Positions 8,140 through 63,147 of a stretch of 64,000 nt of DNA are shown in pieces. The notes beneath the pieces were generated by a model. That model was given only the letters and a program-made list of their open reading frames with translations, made no database searches and had not been told where the DNA came from. The translations under genes and the position numbers were made by a program. Position 1 is the stretch's first letter; each line of letters opens with the position of its first letter. The stretch comes from Marmoricola endophyticus (GTDB taxonomy: Bacteria > Actinomycetota > Actinomycetes > Propionibacteriales > Nocardioidaceae), in NCBI RefSeq assembly GCF_014644415.1, contig NZ_BMKQ01000001.1:186001-250000 (forward strand). The letters run 5' to 3'.

Positions 8140-9036
8140 ATGGATCTGCTGCGCACGCCCGAGGACCGCTTCTCCCGCCTGGCGGACTTCCCGTACGAGC
8201 CGCACTACGCGGAGCTGGCCGACGGCGTAAGGATGGCGTGGGTCGAGGCCGGACCTGCGGACGGCCCGGTGGTCCTGCTGCTGCACGGTGAGCCGTCGTG
8301 GTCGTACCTCTACCGCTCGATGCTCCCGGTGCTCGCCGAGGCGGGCATGCGTGCCGTGGCGCCGGACCTCGTCGGCTTCGGCCGCTCGGACAAGCCTGCG
8401 CGGCGCGAGGACCACTCGTACGCCGCGCACGTCGAGTGGGTACGAGCGCTGGCCTTCGACGTGCTCGACCTGCGTGACGTCACGCTCGTCGGCCAGGACT
8501 GGGGCGGGCTGATCGGGCTCCGCCTCGTCGCCGAGCACCCGGACCGCTTCGCCCGCGTCGTCGCCGCCAACACGGGGCTGCCGACCGGCGACCACGACAT
8601 GCCGGAGGTCTGGCACCGCTTCCGCCGGGCCGTCCAGGGCGCGGCCGACCTCGACGTCGGACGCCTGGTCGCCTCCGGGTGCGCACGAGGTCTGGACCCC
8701 GTGGCGCGCGCCGCGTACGACGCACCGTTCCCGGACGAGTCCTTCAAGGCGGGCCCGCGCGCGATGCCCGGCCTGGTGCCGTACGTCCCCGACGACCCGG
8801 CCAGCGAGGACAACCGGCGTGCCTGGGCGACGCTGACCGGTAGCGACCTCCCGGTGCTGGTCGCCTTCTCCGACTCCGACCCGATCACCGCGGCGATGGG
8901 TCCGGTGCTGCGCCGCGCGCTGCCCGGCGCACACGGGCGCGAGCACCCGACGATCACCGGTGCCGGCCACTTCCTGCAGGAGGACGCGGGGCCGGAGCTC
9001 GCCGCCGCAGTGGTGGAGCTCGTCGCGACGGCCTGA
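8140..9036 (+). CDS. haloalkane dehalogenase-like alpha/beta hydrolase
   Basis: A 298-residue alpha/beta hydrolase resembling subfamily I haloalkane dehalogenases. The oxyanion segment HGEPSWSYLY is near residue 48, the nucleophile elbow GQDWGG carries Asp followed by the halide-binding Trp (near 118-121), a candidate catalytic Asp lies in FSDSDP and the His in GAGHFLQED near the end. A cap segment with a Trp in EVWHRF could supply the second halide contact, though I cannot prove it. Real substrates are often unknown in this family, so an epoxide or ester hydrolase role remains possible. The ATG at 8140 starts the conserved N-terminus; earlier starts lie inside the repeat. Confidence 0.82.
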   Translation: MDLLRTPEDRFSRLADFPYEPHYAELADGVRMAWVEAGPADGPVVLLLHGEPSWSYLYRSMLPVLAEAGMRAVAPDLVGFGRSDKPARREDHSYAAHVEWVRALAFDVLDLRDVTLVGQDWGGLIGLRLVAEHPDRFARVVAANTGLPTGDHDMPEVWHRFRRAVQGAADLDVGRLVASGCARGLDPVARAAYDAPFPDESFKAGPRAMPGLVPYVPDDPASEDNRRAWATLTGSDLPVLVAFSDSDPITAAMGPVLRRALPGAHGREHPTITGAGHFLQEDAGPELAAAVVELVATA

Positions 9037-48968: not shown

Positions 48969-50438
48969 ATGGGCGAGGAGGTCGAGCACCAGGAGTTCTC
49001 CCGTGCGGACCGGACCCAGCACCGCGAGAAGGTGCGTCGCAGTCTCGACGTGCTGGCCCGCATGCTGGCGGAGGCGCGGTTCGACGCCGACGACCCGATG
49101 ACGGGCCTGGAGATCGAGCTCAACCTGACCGACGCGCGCGGCGAGCCCGTGCTGCGCAACGCCGAGGTGCTGGACTCGATCGCCGACCCGGACTTCCAGA
49201 CCGAGCTCGGGCTGTTCAACATCGAGATCAACTCGACGCCGCGACGCCTGCGCGAGCGGGGGCTGTCGGTCTTCGAGGAGACCTTGCGTGCCAGCCTCAA
49301 CCAGGCCGAGGTCAAGGCGTCGGCGTCCGGTGCGCACCAGGTGATGATCGGCATCCTCCCGACCCTCGAGGAGGGGCACATGGTGCCGGCGGCGCTGAGC
49401 GCCAACCCGCGCTACCGCCTGCTCTCCGACGCCATCCTCGCCGCGCGGGGGGAGGACCTGCGGATCGACATCGCCGGTGCCGAGCGGCTCCGGACCACCT
49501 CGGAGACGATCATGCCGGAGGCGGCGTGCACGAGCACCCAGCTGCACGTCCAGGTCGGGCCGGACCAGTTCCCGGCGTACTGGAACGCCTCCCAGGCGAT
49601 CGCCGGTGTGCAGCTGGCGCTGGCGGCCAACGCGCCGTACCTCCTGGGCCGCGAGCTGTGGCGCGAGACCCGCATCCCGCTGTTCGAGCAGGCCACCGAC
49701 ACCCGCGGCGAGGAGCTGAAGGCGCAGGGCGTACGCCCGCGGGTGTGGTTCGGCGAGCGGTGGGTGACCTCCATCTTCGACCTGTTCGAGGAGAACGTGC
49801 GCTACTTCTCGGCTCTGCTGCCGGTGACCGGCGACGAGGACCCGCTCGCGGTGCTCGAGTCAGGCGGCACTCCCGAGCTGTCCGAGCTGCGCCTGCACAA
49901 CGGCACGGTCTACCGCTGGAACCGGCCGGTCTACGACGTCGTGGCCGGCGAGCCGCACCTGCGGGTCGAGAACCGGGTCCTCGCGGCCGGACCGACGGTG
50001 GCCGACACCATCGCCAACGCGGCCTTCTACTTCGGGCTCGTGCGCGATCTCGCGACCAGTGAGCGGCCGCTGTGGTCGCAGATGTCCTTCAGCGCGGCGG
50101 AGGACAACTTCCACGCCGCCGCCCGGGACGGGATCGACGCACAGGTCTACTGGCCCGGTGTCGGCCAGGTGCCCGCCACCGAGCTCGTGCTCCGTCGCCT
50201 GCTGCCGCGCGCGGCGGCAGGCCTGCGGGCATGGGGAGCGGGGGAGGACGAGATCGACCGGCTGCTGGGCATCGTCGAGCGTCGGTGCGTCGCGGGCCGC
50301 AACGGTGCGTCGTGGTTCGTCGAGCGGGTGGGGGAGCGTGAGCGCGCGGGCGACGAGCGGCACGAGGCGCTGAGGCGGACGCTGCTGGACTACACCGAGC
50401 GGATGCACGCCAACGTGCCCGTCCACGAGTGGGACTGA
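48969..50438 (+). CDS. glutamate-cysteine ligase-like protein
   Basis: A 489-residue protein of the glutamate-cysteine ligase superfamily. The ATP/metal-binding acids lie in MTGLEIELNLTD near residues 44-55 (Glu-x-Glu), followed by ELGLFNIEINSTP near 78-90 and TSTQLHVQVGP near 187. It is distinct from EgtA at 54498 and longer. Many actinobacteria carry such a gene; it may ligate glutamate to an amine or cysteine, but the true substrate is not known. It stands alone with its own leaderless promoter. Confidence 0.82.
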   Translation: MGEEVEHQEFSRADRTQHREKVRRSLDVLARMLAEARFDADDPMTGLEIELNLTDARGEPVLRNAEVLDSIADPDFQTELGLFNIEINSTPRRLRERGLSVFEETLRASLNQAEVKASASGAHQVMIGILPTLEEGHMVPAALSANPRYRLLSDAILAARGEDLRIDIAGAERLRTTSETIMPEAACTSTQLHVQVGPDQFPAYWNASQAIAGVQLALAANAPYLLGRELWRETRIPLFEQATDTRGEELKAQGVRPRVWFGERWVTSIFDLFEENVRYFSALLPVTGDEDPLAVLESGGTPELSELRLHNGTVYRWNRPVYDVVAGEPHLRVENRVLAAGPTVADTIANAAFYFGLVRDLATSERPLWSQMSFSAAEDNFHAAARDGIDAQVYWPGVGQVPATELVLRRLLPRAAAGLRAWGAGEDEIDRLLGIVERRCVAGRNGASWFVERVGERERAGDERHEALRRTLLDYTERMHANVPVHEWD

Positions 50439-52066: not shown

Positions 52067-52145
52067 GACGCAGCGGTGTTTGACAGGCGCGGCGCTTGCC
52101 GTGCTCTCACACCCGGTCACCCCGTCTGCCCCCGAGAGGTTCTCT

Positions 52146-53462
<1,317 letters not shown>

Positions 53463-54497: not shown

Positions 54498-55787
54498 ATG
54501 ACCGCGACCGCAGTTGTCGACCACCAGCATGTGCAGGACGACGTGCCGCTCGACGAGCTGGGCGATCCCGTCGAGGTCGCTCGTGCGCACGTGCTCGACT
54601 CGGCGCTGACCGAGAGCGAGGTCGGGCCGGTCGGGCTCGAGCTCGAGCTCCACCTCGTCCCCGCCGACGACCCGTCGCGCCGTCCGACGTGGGCGGAGGT
54701 ACTCGACCTCGTGGCCGGGCTGCCGGCGATGCCACAGGGCAGCGCGGTGACCCTCGAGCCGGGCGGTCAGATCGAGCTGTCCACCCCGCCGGCCGACGGC
54801 GTGGTGGCCGCGGTCGAGGCGCTGCGTGCCGACCGTCAGGTGCTGCGCGACGCACTGTCCGGCGCGGGTTTCGGGGCCGCGCCACTGGGCGCCGACCCGG
54901 CCCGGGCGGCGCGACGGATCAACCCGAGCCAGCGCTACGACGCCATGGAGACGCACTTCGACGCACTCGGCTGCGCCGGCGCCGGGCGGGCGATGATGAC
55001 GGCGACCGCTGCGCTGCAGGTCAACCTCGACGCAGGGCGGCGCGAGCAGTGGGACGAGCGGCTGCACCTGATCCGCAGCCTGGTGCCGGTGCTGCTCGCG
55101 GTCTCGAGCACCTCGCCGTACCTCGGTGGGACGAGCGACGGCTGGCACTCGATGCGGCAGGGCACCTGGCAGGGGATCGACCACGGCCGCAGCGATCCCG
55201 TCTCGCAGGGCGAGCCGCGGGCGGCATGGGCCTTCTACGCGCTGTCCGCGCCGGTGATGCTGCTGCGCGGTGAGCCCGCCGACGACGGCAGCGTCCACTG
55301 CGAGCCGGTGACGACGCGGGTCCCCTTCGCCGCCTGGCTGCGCGGCGAGTCGCCGTTCGACCGCGCGCCCACGCTCGCTGACCTCGACTACCACCTGACC
55401 ACGCTGTTCCCGCCGGTCCGACCGCGCGGCTGGGTCGAGATCCGCTGCCTGGACGCGATGCCGGACCGCTGGTGGCCGGCGATGGCCGCGATCACGGCGA
55501 CGTTGGTCGACCACCCCGATGCCGCGGCGCAGGCGCTCGAGCACGTCGAGCCGGTCGCGGAGGAGTGGCAGCGCGCGGCGCGCGACGGGCTTGCGGACCC
55601 GGCCGTACGCGCCGCCGCGGTCGGCTGCCTGGAGATCGCTCTCGCCCACGCACCCGACGCGCTGCGCGACGAGGTCGGCGAGCTGGTCGAGCTGCTGGTC
55701 TCCGGGCCCGGCCCGGCCGGCCTGCTTCGCCGCCACGCCGACGCCCACGGACCGCTGTCCCTGCTCGAGGAGGAAGCACGTGCCTGA
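54498..55787 (+). CDS. egtA: glutamate-cysteine ligase EgtA (ergothioneine)
   Basis: A 429-residue ligase making gamma-glutamylcysteine, the sulfur donor for ergothioneine. The Glu-x-Glu metal site is in [10 protein letters not shown] (near residues 47-56), and QIELSTPP (near 93) and [11 protein letters not shown] (near 169) match the GCS2-type active site. The ATG at 54498 is 7 bases after a very strong AGGAGGGGG site, which rules out the longer frame. The end overlaps egtB by 8 bases. The assignment to EgtA rests mainly on egtB and egtD next to it. Confidence 0.9.
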
Positions 55788-57102
55788 GTCACGCACCACC
55801 ACCGTCACCGCCGACTCGGTCGCCGCCGGGCTCGAGGACGCCCGCGCGCGTACCCACCGGCTCACCGAGATCGACGAGCCCGAGCTGCTCGCGCAGCACG
55901 ACCCGCTGATGAGCCCGCTGGTCTGGGACCTGGCGCACATCGGGCAGCAGGAGGACCTGTGGCTGCTGCGCGGGGGCAACGCCGCCTGCCAGGGCCTGCT
56001 CTCCGCCAAGGTCGAGCAGCTCTACGACGCCTTCGAGCACCCGCGGGCCGAGCGGGTCACCCTGCCGCTGCTGGGTCCGGCCGAGGCGCGCTCGTACATC
56101 GCCGACGTCCGGGGGCGGGTGCTCGACGGTCTGGAGCGGCGCACGGACGAGGACCTGTTCCCCTTCGCCATGGTCGAGCAGCACGAGCAGCAGCACGTGG
56201 AGACGATGCTGGCCACCCACCAGCTCCGCTCCGGCGCGCCGCTCCTCGGCAGCGGCGCCTCCCTGCCGAGCGGCCGTCCCGTCCCGCGGGACTCGGTCCT
56301 CGTGCCGGCCGGGCCCTTCGAGCTCGGCGTCGACGCCGGCACGGAGCCGGCGAGCCTGGACAACGAGCGCCCCGCGCACACGGTCGAGATGCCCGCGTAC
56401 CGGATCGGGCGGGTGCCGGTCACGAACGGCGAGTGGGCGGAGTTCGTCGCGGCCGGCGGGTACGACGACCCGCAGTGGTGGTCCGAGCGTGGGTGGGCGC
56501 ACCGGGTCGAGGCGGGTCTCGAGCGCCCGAAGTTCTGGGCGCCCGACGGCTCGCGCCGACGGTTCGGGCTCGTCGAGGAGGTCCCGGCCGACGAGCCGGT
56601 CCAGCACGTGTGCTTCTTCGAGGCCGAGGCGTACGCGGCCTGGGCCGGCGCACGGCTGCCCACCGAGCAGGAGTGGGAGAAGGCGTGCGCCTGGGACCCC
56701 GCTCTCGAGCGCCGCCGCCGCTGGCCGTGGGGGGACTCGGAGTGGACCCCGGCGCTGGCCAACCTGGGCGGCGAGGCGCTGCGTCCCGCCCCGGTGGGGG
56801 CCTACGCGGCCGGTGCGTCGGCGTACGGCGTCGAGCAGATGATGGGCGACGTCTGGGAGTGGACGTCGTCGGACTTCCACCCGTGGCCGGGGTTCGTGCC
56901 GATGCTGTACGCCGACTACTCCGCCCCGTTCTTCGGCGGCGACTACAAGGTGCTGCGTGGCGGTGCCTGGTCGGTGGGCGGCGCCTCGGTGCGCCCCTCG
57001 TTCCGCAACTGGGACCACCCCGTCCGTCGGCAGATCTTCTGCGGGCTGCGACTGGCCTGGGACGTCGACGGCGAGCGCGAGACGGCGGTGGCCGCGCGAT
57101 GA
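55780..57102 (+). CDS. egtB: ergothioneine sulfoxide synthase EgtB
   Basis: A 440-residue non-haem iron enzyme that joins the thiol donor to hercynine using oxygen. The DinB-like N-terminal domain provides the three iron ligands His53 ([10 protein letters not shown]), His135 and His139 (HEQQH). The C-terminal formylglycine-generating-enzyme domain (about 165-430) includes [17 protein letters not shown]. The GTG start lies inside the end of egtA, and the stop overlaps egtD (ATGA). With EgtA present the donor is probably gamma-glutamylcysteine, but the EgtC needed to remove glutamate is not encoded here. Confidence 0.94.
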
Positions 57103-58070
57103 GCGTGAACGACGCCGTGGTGCACCTCGACCCGGCCGACCTCTCCCGCCAGATGGCGGTGGACGTACGCGAGGGACTGACCGCCAGCCCGAAGGTGCTC
57201 GCGCCGAAGTACTTCTACGACGCCCGCGGCAGCGAGCTGTTCGACCGGATCACCCGCCTGCCGGAGTACTACCCGACCCGCGCCGAGGCCGCGATCCTCG
57301 CCGCGCACGCCGACGACATCGCGGCGGCCACCGGCGCGCGGACGCTGGTGGAGCTGGGCAGCGGCACCTCGGAGAAGACCCACGCCCTGCTCAGCGCCCT
57401 CGACGCTGCGGGGACCCTGCGTGGCTTCGTCCCCTTCGACGTCGACCCGGCCGTGCTCAAGGACGCCGCCGCGGCGGTGGCCGCCGACTTCCCGGGTCTG
57501 GAGATCAGTCCCGTCGTCGGCGACTTCGACCACCACCTGGGCCTGCTGCCGCGTGGGGAGAAGCGTCTGGTGGTCTTCCTGGGCTCGACGATCGGCAACC
57601 TCGACCCCGACCAGCGGCGCCGCTTCCTGACCGACGTCCGCTCGACGATGGGCCCCGGCGACGCGCTGCTGCTCGGCACCGACCTGGTCAAGGACGTCGA
57701 CCGGCTGGTGGCGGCGTACGACGACGCGGAGGGCGTCACCGCGGACTTCGACCGCAACGTGCTGCGCGTGCTGAACCGCGACCTGGGTGCCGACTTCGAC
57801 GTCGACGCCTTCACCCACCGCGCGGTCTGGGACGCCGATCACGAGCGGATCGAGATGCGCCTGGAGTCGACGCACGCCCAGACCGTCCGCCTCGACGCGC
57901 TCGACCTCGTCGTCGAGTTCGCCGCGGTGGAGCAGATGCGCACCGAGATCTCCTCGAAGTTCCGTCCCGAGGGGGTACGCGGCGAGCTCGCGGCCGCCGG
58001 TCTCCGGGTGGAGCAGTGGTGGACCGACCCGGCCGGCGACTTCGGGCTCAGCCTGTCGGTCCCGGTCTGA
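57099..58070 (+). CDS. egtD: histidine N-alpha-methyltransferase EgtD
   Basis: A 323-residue SAM-dependent enzyme trimethylating histidine to hercynine, the first committed step of ergothioneine synthesis. The SAM-binding segment [12 protein letters not shown] is near residue 83, [13 protein letters not shown] near 159, and the C-terminal [10 protein letters not shown]-type end ([11 protein letters not shown] near 286) contacts the substrate. Start ATG overlaps egtB stop by 4 bases. In mycobacteria egtC lies between egtB and egtD; here there is no room for it. Confidence 0.95.
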
Positions 58071-58080
58071 TCCTGGTGTG

Positions 58081-59022
58081 ATGGCCCCCGTGGTGACCCG
58101 CGAGGACGTCGAGCTGCAGACGTCGGACGGGACCGTGCTGCGCGGGTTCGTCCTCCGGCCGGAGGACGCCGCGCCGTACCCCGTGGTGGTGATGAGCCAC
58201 GGCTTCGGCGTGGTGAAGGAGATGGCGCTGCCGGCGTACGCGCAGGTCCTCGCCGAGGCAGGTATCGCGGTCCTCGTCTACGACCACCGCAACCTCGGTG
58301 CGAGCGACGGGTGGCCCCGACAGGAGGTCGACCCCTGGGCACAGCTGTCGGACGCGCGCGACGTCCTCACCCACGCGGCCGCGCTCGACGGCGCCGACGC
58401 CGACCGGATCGGGATCTGGGGGACCAGCTACTCCGGCGGCCACGTCGTCGTCCTCGCTGCCACCGACCGCCGTGTCCGCGCGGTCGTCTCGCAGGTCCCG
58501 ACCGTCAGCGGGTCGGTCAACGCCTCCCGCAGAGCACCCGCGGCGACGCTCGACGCCATGCGCGAGCAGTTCGCCGCGGATCGGCTGGCGCGGCTGCGAG
58601 GTGGGGCGCCCGCGACGGTGCCCAACGCGCCGGACGTGACCGACGAGGACCTGGCCCACGACGGCGACGACCTGGCCGGATCGGCTCTCGGCAACGACCT
58701 CCGGGCCTGGCTGCGGGCGACGCCGCCGGGTGATCTCACGACGCTGCGGAACGAGCTGACGCTGCGCTCGCACGAGCTCTACGCGACCTACGAGCCGGGG
58801 CGTTGGGTCGCGCAGGTCTCGCCGACGCCGCTGCTGGTGGTGTGCCTCGACCACGACACGGTCACCCCGACCGACGAGGTGCTGCGGATGTACGCCGAGG
58901 CCCGGGAGCCCAAGCGCCTGGTCCTGCTCCCCGGCGGTCACTGCGACGCGTACGGCGTCCAGCAGGCGGCCGCCGCCGAGGCCGCCCGCGCATTCTTCGT
59001 CGAGCACCTGGTCGCGACCTGA
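58081..59022 (+). CDS. alpha/beta hydrolase
   Basis: A 313-residue hydrolase with the nucleophile elbow GTSYSGG (near residues 119-125, Ser122), an Asp in DHDTVTP (near 260) and a His in PGGHCDAYG (near 284). It resembles the dienelactone hydrolase/acetyl xylan esterase group. The ATG follows egtD by only 10 bases and may be read through from that operon, but a role in ergothioneine synthesis is not known. The possible start GTG at 58078 is three bases earlier. Confidence 0.82.
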   Translation: MAPVVTREDVELQTSDGTVLRGFVLRPEDAAPYPVVVMSHGFGVVKEMALPAYAQVLAEAGIAVLVYDHRNLGASDGWPRQEVDPWAQLSDARDVLTHAAALDGADADRIGIWGTSYSGGHVVVLAATDRRVRAVVSQVPTVSGSVNASRRAPAATLDAMREQFAADRLARLRGGAPATVPNAPDVTDEDLAHDGDDLAGSALGNDLRAWLRATPPGDLTTLRNELTLRSHELYATYEPGRWVAQVSPTPLLVVCLDHDTVTPTDEVLRMYAEAREPKRLVLLPGGHCDAYGVQQAAAAEAARAFFVEHLVAT

Positions 59023-59056: not shown

Positions 59057-59896
59057 TCAGCCGCCTGCGACCAGCACCACGCTGACGACCGCGAGGGCGA
59101 GACCGGCGGACTGCCACCGGGTGACCCGCTCGCGGAGCACCAGCAGCGCCAGGACGACCGTCGCGGCGGGGTAGAGCGACGCGAGGACGCCCGCGACCGA
59201 CAGGTAGCCCTGCTGCGAGGCGAGCAGGAAGGTCAGTGCCGCGCCGCTGGAGAGGATGCCGGGGACCAGCCCGCCGACCAGGACCCGGCGGTCGCGGGGC
59301 ACCGGGTCGCCCCGCAGGACCAGTGCGAGAGCGACGACGGCGAGGGTCGAGACGGCGAGGTTCACGGCGAGCGGCCACGTGCCGGAGCCGTCCGGCACCT
59401 GGCCGAGGCAGGCGAACAGGACGCCGAAGCCGAGGCCGGCCAGCAGTCCGTCGCGTACGCCGTCGCCCAGGCGGCTCTCCGCACCCTCCTCGCGGGGAGC
59501 GGCCGAGACCAGCCAGATCGCGGGGAAGGCGGCCACGATGCCGAGCCACACCAGCCAGCCCGGCCGCTCGCCGCCCGCCAAGCCGGCGAGCACCGGTACG
59601 ACCGCCGCTCCGACGCCGGAGACGGGGGCGATGACGCTCATCTGGCCGCTGGAGAGACCGCGGTACAGGAATCCGGCACCCACGCCGCTGCCGACGCCGC
59701 CGAGGGCCGCCCACAGCAGGTCGGCACCCGTCGGGCTGCCGGCGGTGACGAGGGAGGCGAGCGCGAGCAGCACCGTCGCGGAGGCCTGCACGACCACGGT
59801 CACGGCCCAGACCGACGTACGCCGGGCCGCGAGGCCGGCCGCGAAGTCCGAGCAGCCGTAGCAGAGGGCGGAGACGAGGGCGAGGAGGACCGTCAC
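59057..59896 (-). CDS. EamA-family transporter
   Basis: A 279-residue membrane protein with ten hydrophobic segments arranged as two five-helix EamA halves (about 1-130 and 150-279), typical of the drug/metabolite transporter superfamily. The second half contains LASLYPAATVVLALLVLRERV near 240-262, a conserved helix with Pro and Glu. The exported compound is unknown. GTG start; the gene follows the DUF456 gene by 4 bases. Confidence 0.88.
   Translation of the reverse strand: MTVLLALVSALCYGCSDFAAGLAARRTSVWAVTVVVQASATVLLALASLVTAGSPTGADLLWAALGGVGSGVGAGFLYRGLSSGQMSVIAPVSGVGAAVVPVLAGLAGGERPGWLVWLGIVAAFPAIWLVSAAPREEGAESRLGDGVRDGLLAGLGFGVLFACLGQVPDGSGTWPLAVNLAVSTLAVVALALVLRGDPVPRDRRVLVGGLVPGILSSGAALTFLLASQQGYLSVAGVLASLYPAATVVLALLVLRERVTRWQSAGLALAVVSVVLVAGG

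Positions 59897-61089: not shown

Positions 61090-63147
<2,058 letters not shown>

Follow-up and report, generated by a model that had tools for sequence, protein, structure and literature searches.

A three-gene ergothioneine locus

The window that we analyzed, a stretch of 64,000 nucleotides of the Marmoricola endophyticus genome (G000:C1:186001-250000), carries three ergothioneine genes in close succession on the forward strand; all positions below are those of the window unless a contig is named. The first gene, egtA (54498..55787), has an AGGAGG upstream and encodes a glutamate--cysteine ligase of 429 residues, whose translation passes the NCBIfam model TIGR03444 (395.9 bits against a cut-off of 370.8). 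The second, egtB (55780..57102), starts with GTG and encodes a sulfoxide synthase of 440 residues, predicted to be of the gamma-glutamylcysteine type. It passes TIGR03440 (390.4 bits against 360) and matches PDB 4x8b at 641 bits, and it stays below the cut-off of the SenA selenoneine synthase model (309.2 bits against 420). The third, egtD (57099..58070), encodes a histidine N-alpha-methyltransferase of 323 residues (TIGR03438, 372.8 bits against 290.9; PDB 4uy6, 410.6 bits). All three frames are open. A preliminary description of this DNA had stated that egtA and egtB overlap by 8 bases and egtB and egtD by 4 (ATGA), leaving no room for egtC, and the coordinates confirm it. The A-B-D order and the EgtA, EgtB and EgtD families are shared with the mycobacterial egtABCDE operon; however, the mycobacterial operon has egtC between egtB and egtD, whereas the M. 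endophyticus operon has none there.

The gene behind egtD had been described as an alpha/beta hydrolase, and so it proved to be. It lies on the forward strand after a gap of 10 bases (58081..59022; 313 residues) and matches Pfam Peptidase_S15 (61 bits, cut-off 23), while reaching no NCBIfam cut-off. Its best solved relatives are PDB 7d78 (124 bits) and GrgF, 6lzh (111 bits), and the most similar protein elsewhere in the genus, in G066, is 44% identical. The operon is preceded by a gene for an rpoD-type sigma factor (52101..53462, forward strand; NF004561, 800.5 bits, cut-off 582), the start codon of which is tentative. Beyond the hydrolase come an EamA-like transporter gene on the reverse strand (59057..59896), which has no NCBIfam match and owes its family name to a reading of the sequence, and a gyrB/parE-like gene for a topoisomerase subunit B (61162..63147, forward strand; NF004189, 715.5 bits, just below the cut-off of 740). 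Farther upstream, the window protein at 48969-50438 is weakly similar to glutamate-cysteine ligases, at scores far below the cut-offs (YbdK, 20 bits; EgtA, 18 bits), and G086, G195 and G222 have relatives of it to the rpoD side of their egt loci.

Genome-wide search for EgtC and EgtE

Both enzymes were sought with their family models in the whole genome (G000; 3.66 Mb in 22 contigs, 99.99% complete), and neither was found: the top score was 91 bits for EgtC against a cut-off of 218.65, and 84 bits for EgtE against a cut-off of 400. The earlier suggestion that the missing steps are encoded elsewhere is therefore unsupported, and genes that would reduce the finding to a split locus did not turn up. 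The 91-bit match is a class II amidotransferase, which scores 68.8 bits to PDB 3mdn versus 19.5-23.4 bits to the EgtC structures. As a positive control, the true EgtC of a relative (G060) reached 279 bits to the EgtC model and 315 bits to a PDB EgtC. Since the amidotransferase paralogue (86-91 bits) is also present in G071, G082 and G083, all of which have a true EgtC, it is not a dedicated replacement. The 84-bit match to the EgtE model is SufS (546.8 bits, cut-off 475.1), and the second and third matches are NifS/IscS-like, below the cut-offs of those families. A genus profile, made from six of the genus's EgtE proteins and run on 16 genomes, gave 51 bits at best in M. endophyticus, versus 314-645 bits in the eight EgtE-bearing genomes. 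Thus, whereas the mycobacterial system has EgtC and EgtE, neither was found anywhere in this genome.

Gene content in relatives

Missing EgtE is ordinary among relatives, and missing egtC is unusual. The genus profile detected EgtE in 8 of the 16 genomes, namely seven members of the genus plus G222, and gave no EgtE in the other eight, M. endophyticus among them. Operons of the egtABCD form, in genomes where EgtE was not found, occur in G180, G195, G334, G302, G169, G283 and G325 (L254-L256, L258-L261). When the ORFs between rpoD and egtA were read in the EgtE-less relatives, no substitute gene common to them was seen.

Close matches to EgtB (E up to 1e-100) are present in 30 of 341 family genomes, M. 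endophyticus counted. In 29 of the 30, all with the same EgtB type, egtC adjoins egtB, and M. endophyticus is the sole exception. One of the 29, G334, has egtC split across two overlapping frames (L256:6691-7376); this is a one-contig genome, 91% complete, and a sequencing error is possible. EgtD was found in 23 of 81 sampled family genomes. An EgtA match occurs in 9 of the 24 genomes of the genus, and 7 of those 9 have EgtC above the cut-off; the other two are M. endophyticus and G093, whose EgtA is below its own cut-off. Named EgtD loci, taken as the best 80 of 557 and hence weighted toward near relatives, contain EgtC within the locus in 78 cases and EgtE within the fetched stretch in 41. 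The two EgtC-less loci of this set are Mobilicoccus L051 and the MAG contig L102. The egtA-egtB-egtD arrangement is absent from all relatives examined.

Some loci depart from the common layout. In Mobilicoccus caccae (L051:8792-9868), an EgtA-like start is joined to an EgtC-like end in one ORF, egtB is missing and an intact egtD comes next. The contig L102 has egtA and then egtD. In G086 (L199, ~8627-8637), egtC and the EamA gene are direct neighbors, egtD not lying between them, and about 1.4 kb separates egtD from egtC in G071 (L163, 8200-9594), unlike in other relatives of the genus. Herbihabitans rhizosphaerae (L058:8441-10990) has EgtC and EgtD in one uninterrupted frame, a possible EgtC-EgtD fusion.

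Substrate type of EgtB

The substrate-selecting residues of EgtB, to which the preliminary description had pointed, were examined as part of a check of 12 active-site positions, two of which, Gln137 and Asn414, are further positions that we added and take to belong to the active site. For the mycobacterial enzyme, the available portion of the published account gives His51, His134 and His138 as iron ligands, lists Tyr377 as well, and names Arg87, Arg90, Tyr380, Trp415, Asp416 and Arg420 as substrate-binding residues (PMC4768315). All 12 positions are kept in M. endophyticus EgtB and are identical to those of 17 relatives, of which 16 have an uninterrupted EgtC and one (G334) has the split egtC. 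Because all checked residues are kept, the M. endophyticus enzyme is, as judged from these positions, an EgtB of the gamma-glutamylcysteine type.

A second EgtB type, the commoner of the other kinds, is found in nine family genomes and differs at four of the checked positions: in the eight genomes covered (G075 is outside), it has G377, F415, F416 and A or S at 420, with Arg87 and Arg90 kept. Its residues suggest that it is probably the cysteine-using type. According to the part of the literature account at hand, type II EgtB took cysteine, not gamma-glutamylcysteine, and the type II EgtB of Methylobacterium functioned without EgtC (PMC11993508). That pathway resembles the M. endophyticus locus in having no EgtC beside EgtB; however, the type II-like EgtB of the family differs from M. 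endophyticus EgtB at 377, 415, 416 and 420, and M. endophyticus has EgtA.

Probable inheritance of the operon in place

The EgtB of M. endophyticus is 77-82% identical to those of its 15 closest relatives. Within the limited stretches fetched around the egt loci of 17 relatives, the topoisomerase gene lies downstream in 15 and rpoD upstream in 9. Past egtD (or egtC), 11 of the 17 have a relative of the EamA gene, and no flanking gene was found in the stretches fetched for G028 and G005. The order in G222 is rpoD, egtE, egtA, egtB, egtC, egtD, EamA, topoisomerase, and the flanks are also seen in G060. The chromosomal setting of such a locus is the same as in M. endophyticus; the difference is that the relatives' locus, for example that of G222, has egtC and egtE, whereas M. 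endophyticus has neither but carries the alpha/beta hydrolase gene behind egtD. Given the shared flanking genes and the gene order of G222, the most probable history is inheritance of the operon in place with loss of egtC there, and egtE was probably lost in place as well.

The 3' end of egtB may bear on how egtC was lost. Past the conserved end of the protein, egtB has a tail of 11 residues and a stop (57067..57102, forward strand), at the point where egtC starts in relatives. Where the egtB stop and the egtD start overlap, the sequence is CGATGAGC; in G222, egtC ends in DGVAVTTLETR and has CGATGAGC at the corresponding place. In a comparison that was chosen post hoc, after looking, the tail scores 17 against this egtC end. 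At least as high a score is obtained for 2 of 415 ORF ends and for about 1% of random peptides from the window; the two ORF ends are the egtC of G060 itself and one unrelated ORF. The mean score of the tail over 13 relatives is unremarkable, being reached by 133 of the 415 ORF ends, and at its beginning the tail is similar to the EgtB tails of G071, G083 and G020. It is possible that the tail is a fusion scar of the loss, in which the end of egtC was joined to egtB.

Constraint on the kept genes

In trees built from 17 or 18 rows, M. endophyticus has end branches somewhat longer than the medians, though not extreme (EgtA 0.34, EgtB 0.17 and EgtD 0.26 versus 0.25, 0.13 and 0.18). Private changes, scored at otherwise invariant columns, number 3 in 134 columns for EgtA (others 0-7), 1 in 214 for EgtB (others 0-8) and 6 in 132 for EgtD (others 0-5), the last being the most among the 15 compared. 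The dN/dS medians, computed by Nei-Gojobori and useful for comparison only, are 0.496 for EgtA, 0.284 for EgtB and 0.465 for EgtD, inside the range of the relatives (for EgtB, others 0.22-0.327). Constraint is not visibly relaxed in EgtA or EgtB, and EgtD gives at most a weak hint that it might be. It could be that egtC was lost so recently that the remaining genes have not had time to decay.

Interpretation

The finding is a gene loss from a known operon. In the literature that we searched, with most subscription papers outside our reach, we found no account of a gamma-glutamylcysteine-type egtABD operon lacking egtC, and no published statement on ergothioneine made through an EgtB of this type without EgtC. 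A natural deletion of egtC in which such an EgtB is kept makes the dispensability of EgtC in nature testable. Three alternatives stand for M. endophyticus: unrelated enzymes complete ergothioneine, the end product is a different one, or the pathway is being given up. In the closely related genomes, the failure to find EgtE in 8 of 16 leaves the enzyme of the last step unsettled.

We tentatively favor the reading that the locus descends from an egtEABCD operon of the gamma-glutamylcysteine type, from which egtC and egtE disappeared in place, and that non-dedicated enzymes complete ergothioneine, although we hold it with less than even confidence. Of the options raised in the preliminary description, completion by other enzymes is thus the one that we retain, while a location elsewhere and direct use of cysteine found no support. 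In this scheme, EgtA would make gamma-glutamylcysteine and EgtD would make hercynine, and EgtB would join the two into gamma-glutamyl-hercynylcysteine sulfoxide, where the pathway would halt unless non-dedicated enzymes complete it. The glutamate could be removed by a gamma-glutamyltransferase or by the class II amidotransferase paralogue, and the C-S bond could be cleaved by one of the PLP enzymes of the genome; as specific substitutes, all of these are candidates only. The genome has one gamma-glutamyltransferase gene (G000:C1:3234993, 476.8 bits), and because its product shows an apparent signal sequence, as read by eye, it would act outside the cytoplasm. In M. tuberculosis, according to the available part of the report, loss of egtB or egtD abolished ergothioneine, whereas loss of egtA left a very low level (PMC6154287). 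Yeast given a fungal methyltransferase/sulfoxide synthase alone made a little ergothioneine, with the lyase step explained either as an inherent activity or as abiotic (PMC11993508, in the portion available). Completion by non-dedicated enzymes would be possible in the light of the M. tuberculosis mutant data and the gamma-glutamyltransferase in the genome. The EgtE-less relatives with egtABCD must likewise cleave the C-S bond in a non-dedicated manner, if they make ergothioneine.

The main rival, a close second that we consider nearly as likely though rather doubtful when taken alone, was absent from the list in the preliminary description. It is decay of the pathway: egtE and egtC would have been deleted, no ergothioneine would be made, and egtA, egtB and egtD would be leftovers not yet decayed. 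Partial losses elsewhere are consistent with this, namely the chimeric egtA-egtC remnant of M. caccae, egtA followed by egtD in L102, the lack of egtD between egtC and the EamA gene in G086 and, sequencing error permitting, the split egtC of G334; the number of private changes in EgtD points the same way. However, the tight overlaps, the intact frames and the retention of every checked EgtB residue argue against decay, as do the low number of changes in EgtB at invariant columns, among the smaller ones, and dN/dS medians that do not leave the relatives' range.

It is unlikely that the three genes form an operon complete in itself, either with gamma-glutamyl-hercynylcysteine sulfoxide as the finished product or with a new gamma-glutamyl hydrolase other than EgtC, such as the alpha/beta hydrolase, completing the pathway. 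The first version, in which the sulfoxide, or a thiol or thioether derived from it, is kept for its own sake, appears distinctly unlikely. The kept genes are exactly the three needed to make the sulfoxide, and EgtA and EgtB appear intact and of the gamma-glutamylcysteine type; however, none of the relatives examined shares the egtA-egtB-egtD arrangement. We know of no use for this sulfoxide as a product. The second version, with the hydrolase as a non-homologous replacement of EgtC, is improbable. Closeness to egtD fits it, as does the fact that neither the hydrolase nor loss of egtC was found in the other genomes of the genus with this EgtB, but co-occurrence cannot be shown from one genome. 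In addition, the closest structures are GrgF and a DltD-domain protein, not gamma-glutamyl amidases, and at 60 bits the hydrolase is in none of the 80 named egt loci (best 80 of 557). Its position being its only support, we rejected the hydrolase as the substitute.

An error of assembly or sequencing at the egtB-egtD junction is very improbable: the evidence does come from one genome and one assembly, but the ATGA overlap is exact, the frames are intact, the junction lies inside a contig of 3.37 Mb, and egtE was likewise not found. Hardly credible is a direct use of cysteine by EgtB that would make EgtC unnecessary, since the absence of EgtC, which would fit it, is set against the retention of EgtA, of Arg87, Arg90, Tyr380, Trp415, Asp416 and Arg420, as in the 17 relatives, and of W, D and R rather than F, F and A/S at 415, 416 and 420.

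The second EgtB type of the family scores about 550-575 bits to TIGR03440 and sits in egtBD loci without EgtA alongside (L172-L180, in G043, G053, G075, G006, G066, G080, G023, G069 and G072). In five of these genomes (G043, G053, G066, G069 and G075), it is adjoined by an EgtE-like gene on the opposite strand. A third kind of EgtB is carried by G003. Species of one genus carry either of two ergothioneine systems.
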